Positions 20,211 to 61,221 of a stretch of DNA of 61,255 bases are shown here, piece after piece. The notes under the pieces were generated by a model that saw only the letters and a list, made by a program, of their open reading frames with translations, did not search any database and had not been told where the DNA came from. Numbering within the stretch: the stretch's first letter is position 1; each line of letters begins with the position of its first letter. Position numbers and translations under genes: made by a program. This stretch comes from Alphaproteobacteria bacterium (GTDB taxonomy: Bacteria > Pseudomonadota > Alphaproteobacteria > Thalassobaculales > Thalassobaculaceae). The stretch covers positions 1 to 61,255 of the forward strand of contig JABMNR010000159.1 in NCBI GenBank assembly GCA_013203465.1. The letters run 5' to 3'.

Positions 20211-20933
20211 CTAACCCTCGTTCATCACTTTGTCGGCCCGCTTGGGATAGATGATCGCCTCGGCGTGCTGGTGCATGAGTGCGATCTCCGCGTCGCCTCG
20301 ATAGAGCGGCGTGGTGCCCTTGATGGCTGCCAGGTGCTCGGCCGCGATGTTGCGACGAACCTCTGAGGTGAATGAGTTTAGGCGATGATAGGCCTCCGAG
20401 ACGGTCCGGCCGAGTGCGGTGATACCGTGCCCTAAAAGTACAACAAGATTGGTGCCGGCTATGAAGTCTTTGACCGGCCCGACGTCGGCCTCCACGTCTA
20501 CGTTTGCGGGCAGATAGTATGGGGGCTTACCGAGGATGAAGGGCATGTCGAGGGAGATCACCTTGACCTCACGGAAGGCACCCGACCCGAAAAAGGCGAT
20601 CGTTGCGTCATCGTGGACATGGATAACCGCGCCGATGTCTGGGCGCAGCCGAAGAATCTCGCGGCTGAGATTATGGCCGACGCTTGTCGTGCGCGAGCCA
20701 TAGAGCAGCCGGCTGGTGGGAATGTCAGTGATGACGATGTTCTCGATTCCCATCTCCTCGAGTGAAATCTCGGCATGCTTGGTGTAGGCGACGCCATGCG
20801 GGTGATCCGGATGGGCTGCCCGTACCACTATGTTGCCCAGCGTATTGTGGATGTAGCCGCGACCGGCGACGAGGCGCGCATAACGTAAGAACTCCGCACC
20901 GATCTTGGAGTCGAAATGCATCTGAGCTTCCAT
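20211..20933 (-). CDS. Class II aldolase/adducin-domain protein
   Basis: A 240-residue class II aldolase/adducin fold protein; these use a zinc ion held by histidines to cleave or isomerise sugar phosphates and related acids. The metal region is seen as GAVIHVHDDATIAFF and the later VLLGHGITALGRTVSEAYHR. The start at 20933 is well supported by GAGGAGG seven bases upstream. The substrate is unknown; it has no kinase or dehydrogenase partner nearby and is separated from the purine operon and from the IS6 element by short gaps. It could be part of an insertion together with the element. Confidence 0.75.
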   Translation of the reverse strand: MEAQMHFDSKIGAEFLRYARLVAGRGYIHNTLGNIVVRAAHPDHPHGVAYTKHAEISLEEMGIENIVITDIPTSRLLYGSRTTSVGHNLSREILRLRPDIGAVIHVHDDATIAFFGSGAFREVKVISLDMPFILGKPPYYLPANVDVEADVGPVKDFIAGTNLVVLLGHGITALGRTVSEAYHRLNSFTSEVRRNIAAEHLAAIKGTTPLYRGDAEIALMHQHAEAIIYPKRADKVMNEG

Positions 20934-21007
20934 GACGCGTCCTCCTCGACAAAAAACACGACGAGCGCATACGAACGACCGTCAACTGGCGGCGGTCAAC
21001 CAAATAC

Positions 21008-21813
21008 GGCACTATCAAACTAATTCGCATAGGCAAGGGAACCGCTCGAGCTATTGGAATCTCAGGCCGCGAGTTCGCGCCATCGGCCAGGGCGGCGGCG
21101 CGGTCCTGTTTGAACACTTCACGGCGGTTGAGGTGGCGTTCGTGATTGAAAAAGTTGTGGATCGAGGCGTGGACGGAGGCGAATTTCTGCAGGGTGCCAG
21201 TGTTCCTGAACGTCGACATCGCTTTCTCCCGTCGTCGGAGTGGCTGCTGCGAGTTCTCGGCCCGATTGTTAAGCCGACCGCCGCATTCTTGGTCTGCGGC
21301 GTTGCCGATCACACTCATCGCCGCGCGGTATGAACGAAGGCGGTCCGTGACGATGATCTTGGGCTGACCATAGCGTTTCATCGTGCGCTTCAGAAATTTT
21401 AGTGCGGCCTTGCGATCACGGCGTTTCGTGACAAAGGCCTCAAGAACCTCGCCTTCGTGGTCGACGGCCCGCCAGAGGTAATGTATCTCGCCATTTATCC
21501 GAACGAACACCTCGTCCAGGTGCCAGCGCCAATTCGAATATGACCGGTGACGAGTTCGGCGTTTTCGGATCTCCGCCGCGAACATCGGACCGAACCGGTC
21601 CCACCAAAACCTCACCGTTTCGTGGTTGATATCGATGCCGCGTTCGAACAGAAGATCTTCGACCTGACGGAGCGACAGTGGATACCGGACGTACATCATC
21701 ACAGCCAAGCGGATGATCTCGGGCGAACTGTTGAAATATCGGAAGGGATTTCGCATCCGTCGAATCTATGAACAACGGCCTCCCACCTCAAGTCGATTTG
21801 GTCAGGCAGTGCC
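21008..21813 (-). mobile_element. IS6-family insertion sequence, about 806 bp
   Basis: Both ends carry an imperfect inverted repeat starting GGCACT (outer ends at 21008 and 21813), matching at about 14 of 20 positions. They enclose a single DDE transposase gene read on the minus strand. Length and repeat start are typical of the IS6/IS26 family. The 8 bases flanking each end differ (CCAAATAC versus CCGCCGGG), so no target duplication remains. This fits an old insertion or a cointegrate/deletion product. The transposase is frameshifted. Confidence 0.8.
21062..21756 (-). pseudogene. IS6-family transposase, frameshifted near its C-terminus
   Basis: The frame starts MRNPFRYFNSSPEIIRLAV and contains an intact DDE core: WHLDEVFVRING, IVTDRLRSY and NNRAENSQQPLRRREKAM. 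Near 21082 the coding strand reads GCC-GATGGCGCGAACTC where a family C-terminus AEWRELAA-stop would need GAGTGG. One missing G throws the frame, and the original stop (21062-21064) lies in the shifted frame. As it stands the protein reads on for over 100 foreign residues to 20725, into the aldolase gene. The catalytic core is whole, so the element may only recently have decayed or may still be partly active. Confidence 0.8.
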
Positions 21814-50662: not shown

Positions 50663-51523
50663 ATGATCGTGATCATCGGCTGGCTGGTTGTCATCGTCAG
50701 CGTGATCGGTGGCTACATGGCCATGGGCGGCAAGCTAGGGCCGTTGTGGCAGCCGTTCGAGTTGGTGATCATCGGCGGTGCCGGCATCGGCGCGTTCCTT
50801 GTCGCCAACCCCAAATTCGTGTTGGCCAGAACGGGCTACGCCTTCAAGGCCGCGCTTAGAGGGCCAAAATACAACAAGGACGATTATCTCGAACTGCTCT
50901 CCCTACTTTATGCGATCTTCAAGCTCGCCAAGACCAAGGGCATGCTGGCGATCGAATCCCATATCGAAAGGCCGGAGGAAAGCAGCCTTTTCCAGGCGTT
51001 CCCGAAATTCTCCGCCGACCACCACGCACTGGAGTTCCTGTGCGACTACCTCCGCATGATGACGCTGGGAACCGACAACCCGCATGAATTAGCCGATCTG
51101 CTCGACGAAGAGTTGGAAACCCACCACGCCGAGGATGGCCAAATCCAAACCGCCTTCCAAACAATGGGTGACGGGTTCCCGGCGCTTGGGATCGTTGCCG
51201 CCGTGTTGGGCATTATCAAAACCATGAGTTCGATCACCGAGCCGCCGGAAGTGCTCGGTAAGCTGATCGGTGGCGCGTTGGTCGGCACGTTCTTGGGGAT
51301 TTTCCTGGCCTACGGTTTCGTCAGCCCACTCGCGGTGGCCATGGGCAATGTCTTCGCGGCCGACGCTAAGTACATGGGTTGCATCCGCGCTGGCTTGCTC
51401 GCCCATGTGTCCGGCTATGCGCCGGCGGTGTCGGTTGAATTCGCGCGTAAGGCCTTGATGGCCAAGGATCGTCCGTCGTTCTTCGAGGTCGAGGAGGCGG
51501 TGGCCGCCCTGCCGCCAGTGTGA
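50663..51523 (+). CDS. motA: Flagellar motor stator protein MotA
   Basis: A 286-residue stator subunit with four membrane helices. It starts MIVIIGWLVVIVSVIGGYM and has the MotA/TolQ/ExbB domain including GDGFPALGIVAAVLGIIKTM and ALVGTFLGIFLAYGFVSPLA. It couples proton flow through MotB to torque on the flagellar rotor. motB follows after 111 bases. Other flagellar genes are absent from the window, so this is a detached mot pair. Confidence 0.94.
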   Translation: MIVIIGWLVVIVSVIGGYMAMGGKLGPLWQPFELVIIGGAGIGAFLVANPKFVLARTGYAFKAALRGPKYNKDDYLELLSLLYAIFKLAKTKGMLAIESHIERPEESSLFQAFPKFSADHHALEFLCDYLRMMTLGTDNPHELADLLDEELETHHAEDGQIQTAFQTMGDGFPALGIVAAVLGIIKTMSSITEPPEVLGKLIGGALVGTFLGIFLAYGFVSPLAVAMGNVFAADAKYMGCIRAGLLAHVSGYAPAVSVEFARKALMAKDRPSFFEVEEAVAALPPV

Positions 51524-51634
51524 TCGGCGCGGGTCGCGCCTATTGCACACAACGGCCGTTTGAAACATCCCGGCGTGGCCCCGACTTTGCAAGGGTCTGG
51601 GTGATCACGAACACCGTCTAAGGGAACGCATCCG

Positions 51635-52729
51635 GTGGATAATCACGCCGAAGTCATCATCAAGAAGGTTAAGAAGGGGGGACATGCCGCCCACCATGGC
51701 GGCGCCTGGAAGGTGGCGTACGCCGATTTCGTGACCGCCATGATGGCGTTCTTTCTGCTGCTCTGGTTGCTGAACGCGACCACCGAGGAGCAGAAGATGG
51801 GTATTTCCAACTACTTCGACCCGACGGCGATCAGCCGCGCGACCCGCTCGGGCTCCGGCGGCGTGCTGGGCGGCACCTCGATCACCGTGCCCGGTTCGCT
51901 AAAGTCGCCCAGCTCTCCGCCGATGATCAGCACCCCACAGGTCGCGCGTCCGCAAGCCGAGCGCACGGAATCCCTCGATCCCGATTCCGACGACCCGGAG
52001 AACATCGAATCCCGCCTCGGCTCAAAGCAGGACGAGGAAGGCGCGATGAACCAAGAGGTGTTCGAGCAGCTGCTGCGCGAACGTGAACAACAGCAATTCG
52101 AGGATGCCGAGGCGGCACTGCGCGAAGCCATCGAGCAGACGCCCGAATTGTCCGAGTCCGGCGAGGCGCTGCATATCGACGCCACCCCCAACGGACTGCG
52201 GATTCAGCTCGTTGACCAGGAAAAGATCGCGCTGTTCCCCAACGGCAGCGCCGCCATGTACGAGCAGACCCGGATTCTCATCGAGAAGGTCGCCGAGGTG
52301 ATCTCCAAGCTGCCGAACCAGATCGAAATCAGCGGTCATACGGATTCGAAGCAATTCTCGCCCGGCTCAACCTATACCAACTGGGATTTGTCGACCGATC
52401 GTGCCAACGCCTCCCGCCGGGTCCTGATGGCCAACGGTATCGCCGAAAACCGCATTTCCGAGGTGACCGGCAAGGCCGACAAGGAACCGTTCATCGAGGA
52501 CAATCCCGCCGACCCGGCCAACAGACGGATCAGCATCGTGCTGAAACACCTGTCGACCGATGATGCCGAGGGCCTGAAGATCGCCGAGGATGAAGCGCGC
52601 AAACGCGCCGAGCAAGCCGCGGGCACACCGACTTTAGAGGGTGGCGGCCCCGCTCCGGCCGCGAATGATGGCGGCGCGCCGGGGGGCGATAGCGGCGCCC
52701 CCCTCGCCCCCGCCCGCGTCGGCGGCTGA
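51635..52729 (+). CDS. motB: Flagellar motor stator protein MotB
   Basis: A 364-residue stator subunit that starts at GTG 51635. One N-terminal helix carries the proton-binding aspartate D31 in VAYADFVTAMMAFFLLLWLL. An OmpA-type peptidoglycan-binding domain lies in the C-terminal half (IEISGHTDSKQFSPG, DRANASRRVLMANGI). A basic N-tail (KKVKKGGHAAHHGG) is typical. The last 40 residues are Gly/Pro/Ala-rich and probably disordered. The proton-type aspartate is intact. Confidence 0.94.
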   Translation: MDNHAEVIIKKVKKGGHAAHHGGAWKVAYADFVTAMMAFFLLLWLLNATTEEQKMGISNYFDPTAISRATRSGSGGVLGGTSITVPGSLKSPSSPPMISTPQVARPQAERTESLDPDSDDPENIESRLGSKQDEEGAMNQEVFEQLLREREQQQFEDAEAALREAIEQTPELSESGEALHIDATPNGLRIQLVDQEKIALFPNGSAAMYEQTRILIEKVAEVISKLPNQIEISGHTDSKQFSPGSTYTNWDLSTDRANASRRVLMANGIAENRISEVTGKADKEPFIEDNPADPANRRISIVLKHLSTDDAEGLKIAEDEARKRAEQAAGTPTLEGGGPAPAANDGGAPGGDSGAPLAPARVGG

Positions 52730-52921: not shown

Positions 52922-54370
52922 ATGAATGACGGCGACGATCTTCTGTCGACCTATCAACGCGGCCACCATTGGTGCGAGATGTTTGGCGGTGACAGCGCCG
53001 CCGCCGACCACACCGCCGCCGTCCGACAGCGCCTCGGCCACTTATCGCTGAGCGACCTGATCCGGCGCGCCGAGATCGCGGAGCGCGAGCTGTACAACCT
53101 CGGCATCACCTTCACGGTATATTCCGAGCGCGACGTCATCGACCGCATTCTGCCGTTCGACGTCATTCCGCGTCTGCTGTCTCCTGGCGATTGGGGCGTC
53201 ATCGACCACGGTTCCCGCCAACGGGTGACCGCGATGAACATGTTCCTGCAAGACGTCTATCACGACGGCAAGATCCTCAAGGACGGCGTGGTGCCGGCGG
53301 AACTGGTGCTCGGCAATGAGTACTACCGCGAACAGATGCGCGGTGTCGCGGTGCCGCACGGGGCCTATGTGAACATCTGCGGTGTCGATCTGGTGCGCGA
53401 TCATCGGGGCCGTTTCATGGTGCTGGAGGACAACGCCCGCACACCGTCGGGAGTGTCCTACGTGGTGGAAAACCGCCACATGATGCAGCGGACCTTCCCA
53501 GACCTGATGGACGAGATCGGCATCCGGCCGGTCAGCAATTACGGCCAGAAACTCCTTGAGGCGGTATCCGAGCTGGCGCCCGAGCACGTTGCCGACCCGC
53601 AGGTCGTGCTGCTGTCACCCGGGGTATTCAACTCGGCCTATTTCGAGCATGTGTTCCTGGCCCGCGAGATGGGGGTGCCGCTGGTTGAGGGCTCCGATCT
53701 GTTCGTCGAGGATGACAAGGTTTGGATGCGGACCACCGCCGGCCCGGCCCCGGTGCACGCGATCTACCGCCGGCTCGACGACGCGTTTCTCGACCCCGAG
53801 GCGTTCAACCCCGACAGCTTGTTGGGGGTGCCAGGATTGTTCGGTGCCTACGCCAAGGGCAATGTCGGCTTGGCCAACGCCGTCGGTACCGGCTGCGCCG
53901 ACGACAAGGCGGTCTACGCCTACATGCCGCGCATCATCCGCTACTACTTGGACGAAGAACCGATCCTGGACAATGTCGAGACCCATATTTGCGGCGAGCC
54001 GGAGGGATTGGCCTACACCCTCGGTCATCTGGCGGAGCTGGTGGTCAAGCCGGTCGGCGAGTCCGGCGGTTATGGCATCGTGATCGGCCCCCGCGCGACC
54101 GCCGAGGAATTGGCTGAGGTTCGCGCCAAGATCAAGGCTGATCCGTCCAACTTCATCAGCCAGCCAATGATCGACCTCTCGGTCTGTCCAACCCTGATCG
54201 ACGGCATGATCGAGCCGCGCCACGTGGATCTACGGCCGTTCGTGGTAACCGGCAAGGACAGCTGGGTGTTGCCGGGCGGGTTGACGCGCGTCGCTTTGCG
54301 GCGCGGCTCGTTGATCGTCAACTCAAGCCAGGGCGGCGGCTCCAAGGACACCTGGGTGCTCGAAGCATGA
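52922..54370 (+). CDS. Circularly permuted ATP-grasp protein
   Basis: A 482-residue circularly permuted ATP-grasp protein. The core has GVDLVRDHRGRFMVLEDNAR followed by TPSGVSYVVENR, and LVVKPVGESGGYGIVIGP supplies nucleotide contacts. These are predicted peptide-bond ligases commonly encoded with alpha-E proteins and transglutaminase-like peptidases. The alpha-E gene overlaps by four bases here, but the transglutaminase-like partner is absent. The peptide they make is unknown. Confidence 0.88.
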   Translation: MNDGDDLLSTYQRGHHWCEMFGGDSAAADHTAAVRQRLGHLSLSDLIRRAEIAERELYNLGITFTVYSERDVIDRILPFDVIPRLLSPGDWGVIDHGSRQRVTAMNMFLQDVYHDGKILKDGVVPAELVLGNEYYREQMRGVAVPHGAYVNICGVDLVRDHRGRFMVLEDNARTPSGVSYVVENRHMMQRTFPDLMDEIGIRPVSNYGQKLLEAVSELAPEHVADPQVVLLSPGVFNSAYFEHVFLAREMGVPLVEGSDLFVEDDKVWMRTTAGPAPVHAIYRRLDDAFLDPEAFNPDSLLGVPGLFGAYAKGNVGLANAVGTGCADDKAVYAYMPRIIRYYLDEEPILDNVETHICGEPEGLAYTLGHLAELVVKPVGESGGYGIVIGPRATAEELAEVRAKIKADPSNFISQPMIDLSVCPTLIDGMIEPRHVDLRPFVVTGKDSWVLPGGLTRVALRRGSLIVNSSQGGGSKDTWVLEA

Positions 54371-55344
54371 CGTTCACGAGCAATCGTCTACTGGCGCGCT
54401 ACGCCGACTGCATCTACTGGCTTGGCCGCTATATTGAGCGGGCGGAGAACCTCGCCCGCATCCTCGACGTCAACCTCCACTACTCACGGGATTCCCGCGG
54501 CAATCAGAACTGGCGCTCGATCGTACAGCTGTTCGCCGACGAAGAGCAGTTCGACGCGGTCTACGATGTCGCGTCCTACGGCAACGTGGTGCAGTTCTAC
54601 GTGTTGGATCGGGACAACCCCTCGTCGATCGCCACCTGTGTGTTGGCGGCGAAGCAAATTGCTCGCACCCTACGTCCGTTGATTTCGACGGAGATGTGGA
54701 CACACATCAACATCCTGAACAACACAGTGTCCACATGGACCGCCGAAGACATAAAGCCGAGCGAGTTGTCGCGCATTTGCACAATCGTGAAACAAGAGTG
54801 CCAGACCCATACCGGGATTACCGAGGGCACCTTCTTTCGCGATCAATCCTGGCACTTCAATCTGATCGGCCGAATGCTCGAACGCGAGGATCAGACAACA
54901 CGCCTGCTCGACATGAAATACCACCTGCTTCTGCCACCTGATCAGACGGTGGGCAGCGCCGTCGACATCAGCCAATGGAACGCGCTTCTTCGTTCGGTCG
55001 CGGGCTACCACGCCTTCCGCCGCGAGCACCCACGCGGCATGAGCCCCGAGGCGGTGGCCGGCTTTCTGCTGTTCAACACCAGCTTCCCGAGCTCCTTCGC
55101 GATCTGCATCGAGGAGATCGACGAGAACCTCGGCAGGCTCAGAAGCCGCTATGGCCTCCGCGCCGGCACCGGGGCGATGGAACTCTTGGACGAAACCCGC
55201 GCGGCTCTGGACAGCCACACACCGCAGAGCGTCGTGGCATTCGGCCTGCATCAGTTCGCCGATTACCTGCAACGGCAGTTGATCTCCGTCAACACGGAGA
55301 TCCGTCGTGACTTCTGCGGCGCGCTCCCCACCGAAACCATGTGA
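54367..55344 (+). CDS. Alpha-E domain protein (DUF403)
   Basis: A 325-residue, mainly helical alpha-E protein. The typical beginning LLARYADCIYWLGRYIERAEN is present, with FFRDQSWHFNLIGRMLERED in the middle and HQFADYLQRQLISVNTEIRR near the end. Family members travel with circularly permuted ATP-grasp enzymes and are thought to support their reaction; the mechanism is not known. Coupled to the preceding gene (ATGA). Confidence 0.88.
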   Translation: MTFTSNRLLARYADCIYWLGRYIERAENLARILDVNLHYSRDSRGNQNWRSIVQLFADEEQFDAVYDVASYGNVVQFYVLDRDNPSSIATCVLAAKQIARTLRPLISTEMWTHINILNNTVSTWTAEDIKPSELSRICTIVKQECQTHTGITEGTFFRDQSWHFNLIGRMLEREDQTTRLLDMKYHLLLPPDQTVGSAVDISQWNALLRSVAGYHAFRREHPRGMSPEAVAGFLLFNTSFPSSFAICIEEIDENLGRLRSRYGLRAGTGAMELLDETRAALDSHTPQSVVAFGLHQFADYLQRQLISVNTEIRRDFCGALPTETM

Positions 55345-55363
55345 TAGAGGCGGGATTCGACAC

Positions 55364-56113
55364 ATGCATGACGCCACCCTCGCCCCGCCGCTGGGTTTCT
55401 TTCATACCCTGCCGATGCCATGCCCTTATCTGGAGAACCGGGTCGAGCGGCGCCTGGTTTGTGATCTGTCGACCCGGCGCGGCCGTCTCGCTCATGATAC
55501 CCTGGCTCGCTGCGGGTTTCGCCGCACCCAGCATCTGGCGTACCGCCCGGCCTGCGCCAGTTGCAACGCCTGCGTCCCGGTGCGTCTGCGGACCAACGGC
55601 TTTCGCTGGAGCAAGAGCCATCGCCGGGTCATGAAAGCCAATTCCGACCTGATCGGCGAGGTGGTGCCGAACGAAGCGACGCGCGAGCAATACGAGCTGT
55701 TCCTCCGCTACCAAGCCGGTCGCCATGGCGATGGCGAGATGGCGTTGATGGACTATGCCGACTACGCCGCGATGATCGAACGTTCACCGATCGAGACCGA
55801 AGTGATCGAGTACCGGGATGGACGCGGCGTGCTTTGGTCGGCGATTCTGCTCGACCGACAGGATGATGGGCTTTCGGCGGTCTACAGCTTCTTCGAACCC
55901 GGCGCCGACAAACGGGCGCTCGGCCGCTTCATGATCCTTGATCTGGTCACGCGGGCGACACAAACGACATTGCCCTACGTCTACCTCGGCTATTGGATCG
56001 AGGGATGCCGTAAGATGGATTACAAGACCCGGTTCCAACCGGTCGAGCTGCTTGGCCCAGACGGCTGGCGCGAGGCCGCACCGGGCACGGGGATCCAAGG
56101 ATTAGGCGGATGA
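55364..56113 (+). CDS. bpt: Aspartate/glutamate leucyltransferase (N-end rule)
   Basis: A 249-residue Bpt/Ate1-type aminoacyl-tRNA-protein transferase. It adds leucine to proteins that start with Asp or Glu, marking them for ClpAP. It has CPYLENRVERRLVCDLS, FRRTQHLAYRPACASCNAC (the cysteine pair), and YVYLGYWIEGCRKMDYKTRF plus QPVELLGPDGW near the C-terminus. I start at ATG 55364, with GAGG upstream; the frame to 55307 is an extension inside the alpha-E gene. Confidence 0.92.
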   Translation: MHDATLAPPLGFFHTLPMPCPYLENRVERRLVCDLSTRRGRLAHDTLARCGFRRTQHLAYRPACASCNACVPVRLRTNGFRWSKSHRRVMKANSDLIGEVVPNEATREQYELFLRYQAGRHGDGEMALMDYADYAAMIERSPIETEVIEYRDGRGVLWSAILLDRQDDGLSAVYSFFEPGADKRALGRFMILDLVTRATQTTLPYVYLGYWIEGCRKMDYKTRFQPVELLGPDGWREAAPGTGIQGLGG

Positions 56114-56340: not shown

Positions 56341-57435
56341 ATGAAGCGTCGTGACTTCATCAAAACCGCCGGAGCCGTTGGGCTTGGCGGTGCCGCGGCC
56401 AGCACGCTCGCCGCGCCTGCAATCGCGCAACAGCGGATCGAGATGGTCATGGTCTCGTCCTGGGGACGGGATTTTCCCGGCCTCGGCACCGGTGCCCAGC
56501 GTCTGGCGCAAAAGATCCAGGACACCTCCGGGGGGCGGATTCAGGTTCAGTATTTCGCCGCCGGTGAGCGTGTCGGCGCCTTCGACGCGTTCGACGAAGT
56601 CGCTTCGGGCAACGCGCAGGCCTATCACTCGGCCGATTACTATTGGAAGGGCAAGCATCCCGGTTGGGCTTTTTTCACATCGGTTCCGTTCGGGTTGACC
56701 GAGAACGAAATGGGCGCTTGGATTGAATTCATGGGCGGCCAACAGCTCTGGGATGAGTTGGCGGGCGATTTTGGTCTGAAGTGTCTACCGGCTGGCAACA
56801 CCGGTGTGCAGATGGGCGGATGGTTCAACAAGAATATCGATTCGGCCAACGATCTCAAAGGCTTGAAGATGCGCATCCCGGGCCTTGGCGGCGATGTCAT
56901 GGCCAAGCTTGGTGCCTCGCCCGTGTCCCTTCCGGGTGGTCAAATCTACGAAAACCTGGTCTCCGGCGCCATTGACGCGACCGAGTGGGTCGGCCCCTGG
57001 AACGACTACTTCATGAAGTTCTACGAGGCGGCCAAGATCTATTACTACCCGGGCATGCACGAGCCGGGCGGACCGAACTCGCTCGGCATGAACAAGTCCT
57101 GGTGGGAAGGTCTATCGCGCTCCGATCAGATGATCATCGAAGCCTGCGCGCATCAGGCGAACCACTTAGCCATGGCCGAGTACAACGCCAACAACGGCAC
57201 CTATCTGCGTAAGCTGATCGACGAGCATGGTGTGGTCGTCAAGGAGTTCAACGACGACGTCTATGATGCGTTCGGCAAGGCGGCGGCGGAAGTCTATGAA
57301 GAAACCCAAGCGCACAGCGATCTGGCCAAGCGTATTTACGACAGCTTCGCGGCGGCCCGCGCGGATGTTGGCGCCTGGATGAAGTTGTCCGAAGGCGCCT
57401 ATTACAGTCAGCGCAACCGCGTGCTCGGTCTGTAA
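56341..57435 (+). CDS. TRAP transporter substrate-binding protein (DctP family)
   Basis: A 364-residue periplasmic binding protein of a TRAP transporter. It has a Tat-type signal (MKRRDFIKTAGAVGLGGAA with RRDFIK), cut near AIAQQ. The mature part has SGAIDATEWVGPWNDYF and the ligand-region stretch LKMRIPGLGGDVMAKLGA. Its likeness is to the branch that binds organic or keto acids; the ligand is unknown. GGGAG precedes the ATG. It is followed by a strong hairpin and two oversized permease genes. Confidence 0.9.
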   Translation: MKRRDFIKTAGAVGLGGAAASTLAAPAIAQQRIEMVMVSSWGRDFPGLGTGAQRLAQKIQDTSGGRIQVQYFAAGERVGAFDAFDEVASGNAQAYHSADYYWKGKHPGWAFFTSVPFGLTENEMGAWIEFMGGQQLWDELAGDFGLKCLPAGNTGVQMGGWFNKNIDSANDLKGLKMRIPGLGGDVMAKLGASPVSLPGGQIYENLVSGAIDATEWVGPWNDYFMKFYEAAKIYYYPGMHEPGGPNSLGMNKSWWEGLSRSDQMIIEACAHQANHLAMAEYNANNGTYLRKLIDEHGVVVKEFNDDVYDAFGKAAAEVYEETQAHSDLAKRIYDSFAAARADVGAWMKLSEGAYYSQRNRVLGL

Positions 57436-57518: not shown

Positions 57519-58535
57519 ATGAGCGTTTCCGACCAGCCACGCGAACCTGTGGGCATTCTGGCTTACTCTGGCGCGACTATCGCCGTGCGTGCGTTTAGTT
57601 GGTCCTTGGTCGCCTTGACCTTCACGTTCCTTCTGAACGTTTATCTCGTGTTGTGGCTCGGCTGGCCGACGATCATTGAAGGCCTTTTTAACGGTACGGC
57701 GACAGAGGGCAGTCTGTTCGCCATCATCCAGATTGGTTTGTACCTGCTCGCTCTGGGCGGTCCGATTGGCTTCGCCATGCTGCGCCCCGATCGTGCTCTC
57801 CGCCAGGACGCAGCCGCTATCATGGGGTTGTCGACCTATATTATCCGGGCGTCGTTCTGGGCGATCCTGTTGATCGGGACGGTCGATGGAATTATTTCGT
57901 TCCTACGGGTGGAGGAGCTGTTGTCTTCGGTGGTCGGCAATGACCTGACAACCGAACTCGGACGCTCCCGGTTTCGCGGCCCCTACATACACATGCCCCT
58001 GATCGTGCTCTCCTTGGTGATCGCCGCACGGTCAAAGTCGCTCGGCTTCCATTGGTTGGCCCTGATGGTGGTCATTGCCGAGCTGCTCATCGTGCTGAGC
58101 CGTTTCGTGTTCTCCTACGAGCAAGCCTTCCAGGGTGATCTCGTGCGGTTCTGGTACGCTGGCCTGTTTCTGTTCGCCAGCGCCTATACGCTGTACGAGG
58201 ACGGCCATGTTCGGGTTGACGTGCTGTACTCCGGGTTCTCCGAACGCGCCAAAGGGGCGGTTAACGTGATCGGCTCGATCGTCCTGGGACTATCCCTGTG
58301 CTGGGTGATCCTGGGGCTCGGCATGTGGGACAAGACCAGCATTATCACCAGCCCACTGATCAATATCGAGGTTTCGCAATCCGGCTTCGGTATGTATGTG
58401 AAGTATCTGATGGGCGGTTTCCTGGCGATCTTCGCGATCACCATGACCATCCAATTCGCCAGTTACATCCTCGACAGCGTGGCCGATTTCCGCGGAGAAC
58501 CGGGGCGCCACGACGCCGAACATTCCATCACCTGA
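57519..58535 (+). CDS. TRAP transporter small permease with extra N-terminal membrane half
   Basis: A 338-residue membrane protein. The C-terminal half (from about residue 185) matches DctQ, with RFWYAGLFLFASAYTLYEDG followed by HVRVDVLYSGF. Ordinary DctQ proteins are only about 160-200 residues. The N-terminal roughly 180 residues add about four further hydrophobic segments (for example FTFLLNVYLVLWLGWP and IIQIGLYLLALGGPIGFAML) that I do not recognise. The gene is 25 bases ahead of the large permease. It may belong to a TRAP subgroup with enlarged small subunits. Confidence 0.8.
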   Translation: MSVSDQPREPVGILAYSGATIAVRAFSWSLVALTFTFLLNVYLVLWLGWPTIIEGLFNGTATEGSLFAIIQIGLYLLALGGPIGFAMLRPDRALRQDAAAIMGLSTYIIRASFWAILLIGTVDGIISFLRVEELLSSVVGNDLTTELGRSRFRGPYIHMPLIVLSLVIAARSKSLGFHWLALMVVIAELLIVLSRFVFSYEQAFQGDLVRFWYAGLFLFASAYTLYEDGHVRVDVLYSGFSERAKGAVNVIGSIVLGLSLCWVILGLGMWDKTSIITSPLINIEVSQSGFGMYVKYLMGGFLAIFAITMTIQFASYILDSVADFRGEPGRHDAEHSIT

Positions 58536-58560
58536 CACTCACTGAGGGCGATTCCCCGTC

Positions 58561-61221
58561 ATGGAGCTTTTCTTTCTCGCCCTGCTCGTGATCTTGATGG
58601 CCACAGCCCTCGGATCCGGGTTCCCGGTTGCTTTTGCCTTGCCCGGATCCGCCATCCTCACGATCGGGCTGGCGGCGCTGGCTGGGTTTCTCGTCGAGGG
58701 CGCCCCCGACGCCTATTTCGCCCAGGGCGGGCCGCTGAACTGGCTCAGCGCCGGCGTGACCAACTTTCGCGGCATCTATTGGGAGGTCGAGCGCGATACC
58801 CTGATCGCGATCCCCTTGTTCGTGTTCATGGGGATCATGCTTCAGCGCTCGAAGATCGCCGAGGACCTGCTGGTCTCCATGGCCCAGTTGTTCGGGCCGG
58901 TTCGGGGCGGCCTCGGCATTTCCGTGGTGTTCGTCGGTGGCCTGCTCGCGGCCACGACAGGTATCCTGGGCGCGACGGTGGTGGCCATGGGCCTGATCTC
59001 GCTCCCGGCGATGCTGCGCAACCACTACTCGCCATCCTTGGCCACCGGCACCATTGCCGCGGCGGGCACCTTGGGCCAGATCATACCGCCATCGATCGTG
59101 CTGATCATTCTTGCCGATCAGCTGTCGAGCGCGGTCGACCAAGCCAGCACACAGCGCCTAGGCTACTATAAGGAAACCACCGGCGAATTCAGCATGCCGA
59201 GCGAGTTCGGCGTGGTGTCGACCAGCGCCGGCGACATGTTCATGGGCGCCCTGTTGCCCGGCCTGGTTTTGGTCGGCTTGTACATGCTGTACATCCTGGT
59301 CCTGTCTTTTCTCCGACCGCAATCAGCGCCGGCCATGCCTTTCAAGGGTGCCTTCGATCGGGCGTTCGTGGCACGTGTCGTGTTATCGCTGGTTCCGCCT
59401 TTGACGCTCATTTTCGTCGTCTTGGGGTCGATCATTACCGGCATCGCGACCGTGAATCAGGCCGGCGCCATCGGCGCGGCCGGCGCCACGATCATGGCGG
59501 GCTATCGGTTATGGGGCGATCGACCCCGCACCTTCTCGCCAGCGATCATCACGATCGCCTCGATCACGTTGATCCTGATCACGATCAATATCAGCCCGGT
59601 CAACATCCGCCAAATCGACACCGGCGCCGATCAAATCGCGCTGATCGTGGCCGCGATCGGCGTGCTGGGCTTTCTCTGGGGGCTCGGCTGGAGTCTGTGG
59701 CGCACGCTGGTCATCGAGGACACCCTGCGCGGCGTGATGCTGGAGACGGCGAAGACCACCTCGCTGGTGTTCATCATCCTTCTCGGCGCCGCCATGCTGA
59801 CCGCCGCGTTCCGGGCGTTCGGCGGCGAGGATCTGGTGCGGGAGTTCCTGACCAGTCTGCCAGGCGGATTCTGGTCCCAGTTCATCATTGTCATGGCCGT
59901 GATCTTCTTCCTCGGTTTCTTCCTCGACTTTATTGAAATCGCCGTGGTCGTGGTGCCGATCGTCTCACCGATCCTGTTGGCCGATCCTGGCGCCAACGTC
60001 ACCGCCGTGTGGCTCGGCGTGATGATCGGCCTGAACATCCAGACGTCATTCCTGACCCCGCCTTTCGGTTTCGCGCTGTTCTATCTGCGCGGTGTGGCGC
60101 CAGCCGTGGTCAAAACGATCTCAATGTACAAGGGTGTCGTGCCGTACATCGCCCTGCAACTGTTCGCCTTGGTGATTGTCGGCAACTTTCCGGCCTTGGT
60201 GAACTACATCCCGACCCGGGTATCGCTTACCGCGACCACCGCCCCGCCGCCGAAGAACCCTCGACTGCAGTCCTGCATCGAGGATTACATCGTGGCCTAC
60301 AACCTCGAGAACGGCGAGCGTATCCGCGGCCTTATCGTCAACGCACGGCAATGGGACATGACCGGCGTTCCGACCGGCGTCGCGAACGGCGTGCGCAAGG
60401 GCCTGGAGCAGGCCGACGCGACCTTCGACTTGCTTGAAGCGGCCTTCGCCACCGGAGCGATCGTGGACACGGCCGCCATCGACTACCGCCCCCTGCATGA
60501 GCATGTCCGCGCCATGCAGCGCACGATCAACAGTGACCTGGCAGACATTAAACGGCTAAAGAAGCAAATAACCACGACCAAGCGCTTCAGCTCGGAGCGG
60601 ACCGATCTGATTGACCGCGACGAGGACCACATCGCCACCCTCACCGCTGACGTGGCCGCACTCCAAGCCGCCATACCAAGCGAGTGGGGGGAAAGGCGCA
60701 AGACGTTTACGAAGCTTCTGGCGGAGCAGAAAAAGGCCCGTCTGGCCTACCGCCGCGCCACCGACGGCGCCTATGAGCCGGTGAAGACATTCCTCGACGT
60801 TCTGCGGACCGCGGACGCCTTGGCCGCGCTGGAAAGCGACGTGCGCGCGCTTGATCAGGTTGTGCGAAGCGACGAGCCGATTGAAGCCCGCGAGAGTGCG
60901 ATCCAGGCGATCGAGAAGCGTATCAGCGATCAGGTCGCGGAAGCCGGCGACATCAATTCCGCCATCGCCAAAGTCCGCCGCGCCATCAAACGCGCACCGG
61001 ATGAGGCGATGGCGCTTTACGCCGACGCCATAGCCACGATGACCGGTGAAATTGCCTGGCGGACCGCCGCGCGCGACCGTCTGCTTACCAAAGTCGCGGA
61101 CTATGAGGCGGCGATCCGCGACACCATCGGCTTGCGCGCGCAAACGAAGATGCCAAGGACCGTCGCCCTTGAGGTTGTCGCCTGCCGCTCCCACCACGAG
61201 GACATCTCGCTGCACTTCTAG
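58561..61221 (+). CDS. TRAP transporter large permease (DctM) with long C-terminal soluble extension
   Basis: An 886-residue protein. Residues 1 to about 550 form a DctM/SiaM-type large permease, with IPLFVFMGIMLQRSKIAEDL, ATTGILGATVVAMGLISLPA, GTLGQIIPPSIVLIILADQL and TSFLTPPFGFALFYLRGVA. A middle insertion makes even this part longer than the usual 430. From about residue 556 to the end there are no membrane helices. This tail is rich in Ala, Arg, Glu, Asp and Lys, with heptad-like coiled-coil stretches (LADIKRLKKQITTTKR, IATLTADVAALQAAI). The tail is unlike standard DctM. No terminator is seen in the last 34 bases of the window. Confidence 0.82.
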   Translation: MELFFLALLVILMATALGSGFPVAFALPGSAILTIGLAALAGFLVEGAPDAYFAQGGPLNWLSAGVTNFRGIYWEVERDTLIAIPLFVFMGIMLQRSKIAEDLLVSMAQLFGPVRGGLGISVVFVGGLLAATTGILGATVVAMGLISLPAMLRNHYSPSLATGTIAAAGTLGQIIPPSIVLIILADQLSSAVDQASTQRLGYYKETTGEFSMPSEFGVVSTSAGDMFMGALLPGLVLVGLYMLYILVLSFLRPQSAPAMPFKGAFDRAFVARVVLSLVPPLTLIFVVLGSIITGIATVNQAGAIGAAGATIMAGYRLWGDRPRTFSPAIITIASITLILITINISPVNIRQIDTGADQIALIVAAIGVLGFLWGLGWSLWRTLVIEDTLRGVMLETAKTTSLVFIILLGAAMLTAAFRAFGGEDLVREFLTSLPGGFWSQFIIVMAVIFFLGFFLDFIEIAVVVVPIVSPILLADPGANVTAVWLGVMIGLNIQTSFLTPPFGFALFYLRGVAPAVVKTISMYKGVVPYIALQLFALVIVGNFPALVNYIPTRVSLTATTAPPPKNPRLQSCIEDYIVAYNLENGERIRGLIVNARQWDMTGVPTGVANGVRKGLEQADATFDLLEAAFATGAIVDTAAIDYRPLHEHVRAMQRTINSDLADIKRLKKQITTTKRFSSERTDLIDRDEDHIATLTADVAALQAAIPSEWGERRKTFTKLLAEQKKARLAYRRATDGAYEPVKTFLDVLRTADALAALESDVRALDQVVRSDEPIEARESAIQAIEKRISDQVAEAGDINSAIAKVRRAIKRAPDEAMALYADAIATMTGEIAWRTAARDRLLTKVADYEAAIRDTIGLRAQTKMPRTVALEVVACRSHHEDISLHF

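Follow-up and report, generated by a model that had tools for sequence, protein, structure and literature searches.

The best explanation we can offer for this locus is a keto-acid TRAP transporter with linked additions to its two permease subunits, DctQ and DctM, in which a periplasmic, disulfide-closed tower on DctM would dock or retain a TakP-type binding protein. We give this reading as a whole a probability of roughly 45%. The two additions themselves are conserved and co-inherited. The preliminary description of this DNA proposed an unusual transporter complex, and we agree: the accessory module is conserved, belongs to one clade and is always paired with an enlarged DctQ. The tailed TRAP variant is undescribed within the searchable literature; our search, which covered few subscription papers, found nothing on TRAP or DctM proteins with a coiled coil.

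The window is the whole stretch of DNA analysed, 61,255 nucleotides, and is also the whole contig. Three genes lie at its end in the order binding protein, DctQ, DctM, all on the + strand, with Q and M as separate genes. The TakP-like, DctP-family binding protein (56341..57435, +) has 364 amino acids and a Tat-type signal (PF03480, E 5e-53). The small permease DctQ (57519..58535, +) has 338 amino acids, with PF04290 matching residues 190-311 at E 6e-11. The large permease DctM (58561..61221, +) has 886 amino acids, and its Pfam match falls in the membrane part (PF06808, E 4e-60). All three matches exceed the gathering cutoff, which puts DctM, DctQ and DctP-family proteins in one cluster. Judged by sequence, this cluster is a DctP-type TRAP importer.

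The C-terminal helical (coiled-coil) tail of DctM covers residues 557-886 (60229..61218, +). The preliminary description gave the large permease 886 residues and a heptad-like, soluble portion after about residue 556, and it named two things that could undo its claim: a frameshift that had fused two genes, or a tail that was already a named domain. The length and the boundary are both correct, since reading frame 58561-61221 gives exactly 886 amino acids, and neither of the two objections applies. Scanning one genome per species turned up 304 encoding relatives, and every one of the 80 that were kept matched through query residue 886. With further relatives from whole-genome searches included, 115 distinct tails, the window's among them, could be aligned, and all 115 are co-linear. 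The tail varies little in length (327-335 residues in 81 sequences), there is a conserved motif at the very C-terminus of DctM, and the tail contains no transmembrane segment. Identity to the window is 70-84% in the core versus 29-45% in the tail.

Wherever the tail is found it is fused to DctM, and no free-standing copy was seen in our genome samples (397 across the phylum and 387 alphaproteobacterial). Weak tail matches in shorter frames of two genomes, G047 and G439, look like chance coiled-coil matches. Searches of Pfam and NCBIfam with the window tail returned nothing above cutoff, only sub-threshold coiled-coil matches, and among profile families compared with 37 tails none matches more than 3 of them at E 0.01. 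These matches are weak and inconsistent, some of them SMC-type, so we reject the idea that the tail is a known domain. No internal repeat was seen in it either (hhalign probability 1.2). In two small genomes the tail profile matched in separated pieces only (G563:C1, about 152150-153061, and G478:C167, about 20544-21251); the frames there are 882 and 838 amino acids, and their tails may have changed or lost a part.

The preliminary description also called DctM enlarged relative to a normal one. The tail is indeed extra, but the excess in the core is largely common to tailless cousins. The core has 556 residues versus 427 for SiaM, about 125 more, and tailless cousins with a DctM of about 515-541 amino acids have most of this extra length. 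Only the tail and the added half of DctQ are therefore special.

AF2 models residues 567-852 of the tail with pLDDT mostly above 90 and nearly all as helix. The predicted helices are 605-676 (72 residues), 681-704, 709-749, 774-791, 796-811 and 813-852, and we read their order as a probable antiparallel helical bundle. Hydrophobicity averaged over the alignment peaks at 3.45-3.55 residues in the three longest helical stretches (0 of 1000 shuffles as strong), which bears out the heptad-like repeat; the periodicity is not significant in the tail's two shorter helices. In the Foldseek list, residues 749-840 look like helical bundles of GPCR entries; we take these to be the fused BRIL bundle, and the likeness to be one of generic arrangement rather than homology. 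The membrane core is modelled poorly (pLDDT blocks of 40-90), for which a shallow alignment is the probable reason, and the model therefore does not fix where the tail stands on the core. DctM residues 56-562 nevertheless align to SiaM (7qha_B, Z 25.1, 388 residues), a SiaM/DASS-like elevator fold.

Which side of the membrane the tail lies on can be argued from three kinds of data. In the solved PpSiaM both the N- and the C-terminus are outside, and TM10-12 are part of the transport domain, which moves (PMC9971032). In the window DctM the tail begins directly after the stretch that aligns with the end of SiaM. Lys and Arg together average 3.2 in the loop leading into the last helix, versus 1.0 in the 18 residues that follow this helix. 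Each tail contains two cysteines and no more, Cys572 at its start (codon 60274..60276, +) and Cys875 at its end (codon 61183..61185, +), both invariant in 115 of 115 tails, and no other position in DctM has a conserved cysteine among 64 full-length proteins. Because of this invariant lone pair, the C-out topology of SiaM and the Lys/Arg asymmetry, we infer that the tail is very probably periplasmic, carried on the last transmembrane helix of the transport domain, and, with good support, that a Cys572-Cys875 disulfide closes its two ends. The two cysteines lie near opposite ends of the tail, and an even number of antiparallel helices would bring those ends together. A conserved disulfide from the tail to the binding protein or to Q is unlikely, because none of the cysteines of the window's binding protein is conserved and the only conserved one in Q lies in a predicted membrane helix.

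The addition to DctQ is N-terminal, at about residues 1-172 (57519..58034, +), and lies outside the Pfam DctQ match. The extra membrane half that the preliminary description saw in the small permease is this region, with four long predicted helices (AF2: 18-46, 62-88, 94-131 and 150-171; mean pLDDT for the whole DctQ 84). The DctQ frames of the relatives are at least 319 residues throughout, and DctQ was aligned over 65 sequences. The idea that the extension is an internal duplication of DctQ has no support (hhalign probability 0.4), and the DctQ model found no significant match in the PDB.

The tail occurs in 39 of 387 alphaproteobacterial genomes sampled evenly (one further weak match was set aside as chance) and in 8 of 397 genomes sampled evenly across the phylum (one weak match set aside). 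Metagenome-assembled genomes labelled Gammaproteobacteria and SAR324 carry it too. In the 397-genome sample a profile of the N-terminal half of DctQ matched exactly the 8 tail-bearing genomes, in 9 of 9 operons, and nothing else. Tailless cousins have a DctQ of about 166-192 amino acids and a DctM of about 463-541, and their binding proteins are, where tested, 37-43% identical to the window's. In a maximum-likelihood tree the 24 tailed DctM cores form one clade (100/100), nested among tailless DctMs, and the state of the tail requires one change (none of 500 shuffles gave so few). The long-branch warnings for this tree fall on distant rows without the tail.

The same tree and the relatives' loci hold several further observations. 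A genome of the same family (G001:C4, loci L014/L104) has a second, divergent tailed operon whose core is about 63% identical to that of the window, and this operon branches first within the tailed clade. One sequence (L018, CP051228.1), titled Mesoflavibacter (Bacteroidota), clusters with alphaproteobacterial DctMs and looks mislabelled or contaminated. At that locus and three others (L028, L038, L048) a short DctQ and a tailless DctM lie directly 3' of the tailed P-Q-M genes. Of the 67 relatives for which 2.5 kb or more of downstream sequence is available, 4 have such a second Q-M pair, with no further binding-protein match in between, and both permeases might share one binding protein.

Among solved structures, TakP of Rhodobacter sphaeroides is the best match to the binding protein (2hzk, E 2e-74). 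TakP binds Na+-pyruvate and forms a helix-swapped dimer (PMC1839085). The alignment reaches residue 354, across the C-terminal region that contains TakP's dimer-swap helix. The six ligands of Na+-pyruvate in TakP (Tyr100, Gln156, Arg177, Glu214, Trp215 and Glu240) are all identical in the window and invariant among 63 binding-protein sequences. A small 2-oxo acid, something like pyruvate, is therefore the likely substrate.

The genes around the cluster do not indicate a functional partner. At 18 loci the relatives' upstream neighbour is an arginyl-tRNA-protein-transferase-type gene, so named by its likeness to window 55307-56113, which matches PF04376/PF04377. Their downstream neighbour, at 17 loci, is a candidate parC, named from the appearance of its sequence only. 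Neighbours that look like housekeeping genes suggest a stable chromosomal position. Further upstream in the window a circularly permuted ATP-grasp gene is followed by an Alpha-E domain gene (52922-55344), and a MotA/MotB-like pair (50663-52729) adjoins them.

The weaker part of our reading is what the tower does. We suggest it would be an arm on which the TakP-type binding protein docks and is retained. Such an arm might raise the local concentration of that protein or hold it through the elevator stroke, and the extra helices of DctQ might enlarge the fixed scaffold. We favor this function because VcGluQM has a claw in an analogous position, a periplasmic C-terminal domain on the transport domain, which has been modelled against its binding protein (PMC11574862). 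This is an analogy of position and not homology. In modelling of HiSiaQM, docking of a TakP-like dimer was noted to be possible if its second monomer points upwards (PMC9352664); sterically, a tall arm next to such a dimer would therefore be reasonable. Two facts count against a docking arm. The Q and M encoded next to the R. sphaeroides TakP dimer match neither addition, and dimerisation of the binding protein alone therefore does not call for them. The tail is also much less conserved than the core. One can go further and argue for a distinct class of DctP-type TRAPs, in which a disulfide-closed arm on the elevator would couple to the opening of the binding protein, mechanical coupling would take the place of diffusive encounters, and both additions would have been gained together. 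We regard this stronger version as possible but on balance doubtful.

The main rival holds that the tail serves for oligomerisation, alone or together with the DctQ extension: periplasmic coiled coils would pair two QM units, so that both could be served by one binding-protein dimer. The coiled-coil-like periodicity fits this idea, TakP-type binding proteins are dimers (PMC1839085), and HiSiaQM can dimerise via Q (PMC10942642), the subunit that is enlarged here. However, AF2 makes a confident intramolecular helical bundle from a single chain, and the sole cysteine pair looks placed for closing one chain, so we think oligomerisation rather unlikely. Tethering to the envelope is a lesser rival. 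A predicted helix of 72 residues would be about 108 Angstrom long and the protein ends in a conserved motif, as a spacer reaching for peptidoglycan, an outer-membrane channel or another periplasmic protein might. That motif would be expected at the base of the bundle rather than at its tip, though, and no conserved envelope partner gene lies nearby, the recurrent neighbours being of housekeeping appearance; this makes a tether improbable.

The preliminary description left open whether the tail was cytoplasmic or periplasmic and offered sensing as a role. The periplasmic option is strongly favored by the cysteines, the SiaM topology and the Lys/Arg counts, and the same data make the cytoplasmic one unlikely. 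Of the roles it named, scaffolding or partner binding, with partner binding preferred, is the most plausible, whereas sensing has no support. Apart from the preliminary proposal, a cytoplasmic sensory or regulatory module can call on nothing but weak SMC-type coiled-coil matches. It would have to place the C-terminus on the wrong side for a SiaM-like M subunit and keep a lone cysteine pair invariant in 115 of 115 tails, and neither a sensory or output domain (in Pfam and NCBIfam searches) nor a linked regulator was seen, so we hold it to be very improbable. That the long DctM is an artefact of a frameshift, a gene fusion error or the contig end has next to no chance: the stop codon is in the window with only 34 bases left before the contig ends, but sequences from more than 100 other genomes have equal length and the conserved C-terminal motif, and co-linear relatives matched to residue 886 rule the artefact out.

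The proposed docking arm can now be set against known systems. TakPQM of R. sphaeroides (TakP, 2hzk/2hzl) is alike in the family of its binding protein, in the six ligands and in having related Q and M genes; in the R. sphaeroides-type locus that we compared, whose TakP is 100% identical, Q and M are the ones that show no match to the DctQ extension or the DctM tail. SiaQM (PpSiaQM 7qha, HiSiaQM 8thi/7qe5) is alike in the fold of the DctM core and is an elevator-type permease, but its M of 427 residues is tailless and there are four transmembrane helices in its Q. The VcGluQM claw (DUF3394, in a TAXI-TRAP) comes nearest as a precedent; it is a C-terminal periplasmic addition to the transport domain with a proposed contact to the binding protein. 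The claw is mainly beta-sheet and is part of a loop flanked by added transmembrane helices, whereas the window tail is all-helical and terminal; VcGluQM is a fused TAXI-type QM, whereas the window system has a DctP-family binding protein and separate Q and M. DUF3394 matches neither DctM nor its tail, and the folds of the two modules are unrelated. The authors of the VcGluQM work state that no such extension had been reported for DctP-type TRAPs (PMC11574862). The window family would be a counter-example, with a conserved C-terminal and very probably periplasmic module on a TRAP of just that type. The family bears on the question of how a TRAP elevator and its binding protein are coupled. Should both modules make contact with the binding protein, M subunits would have evolved the ability to capture it two times or more.
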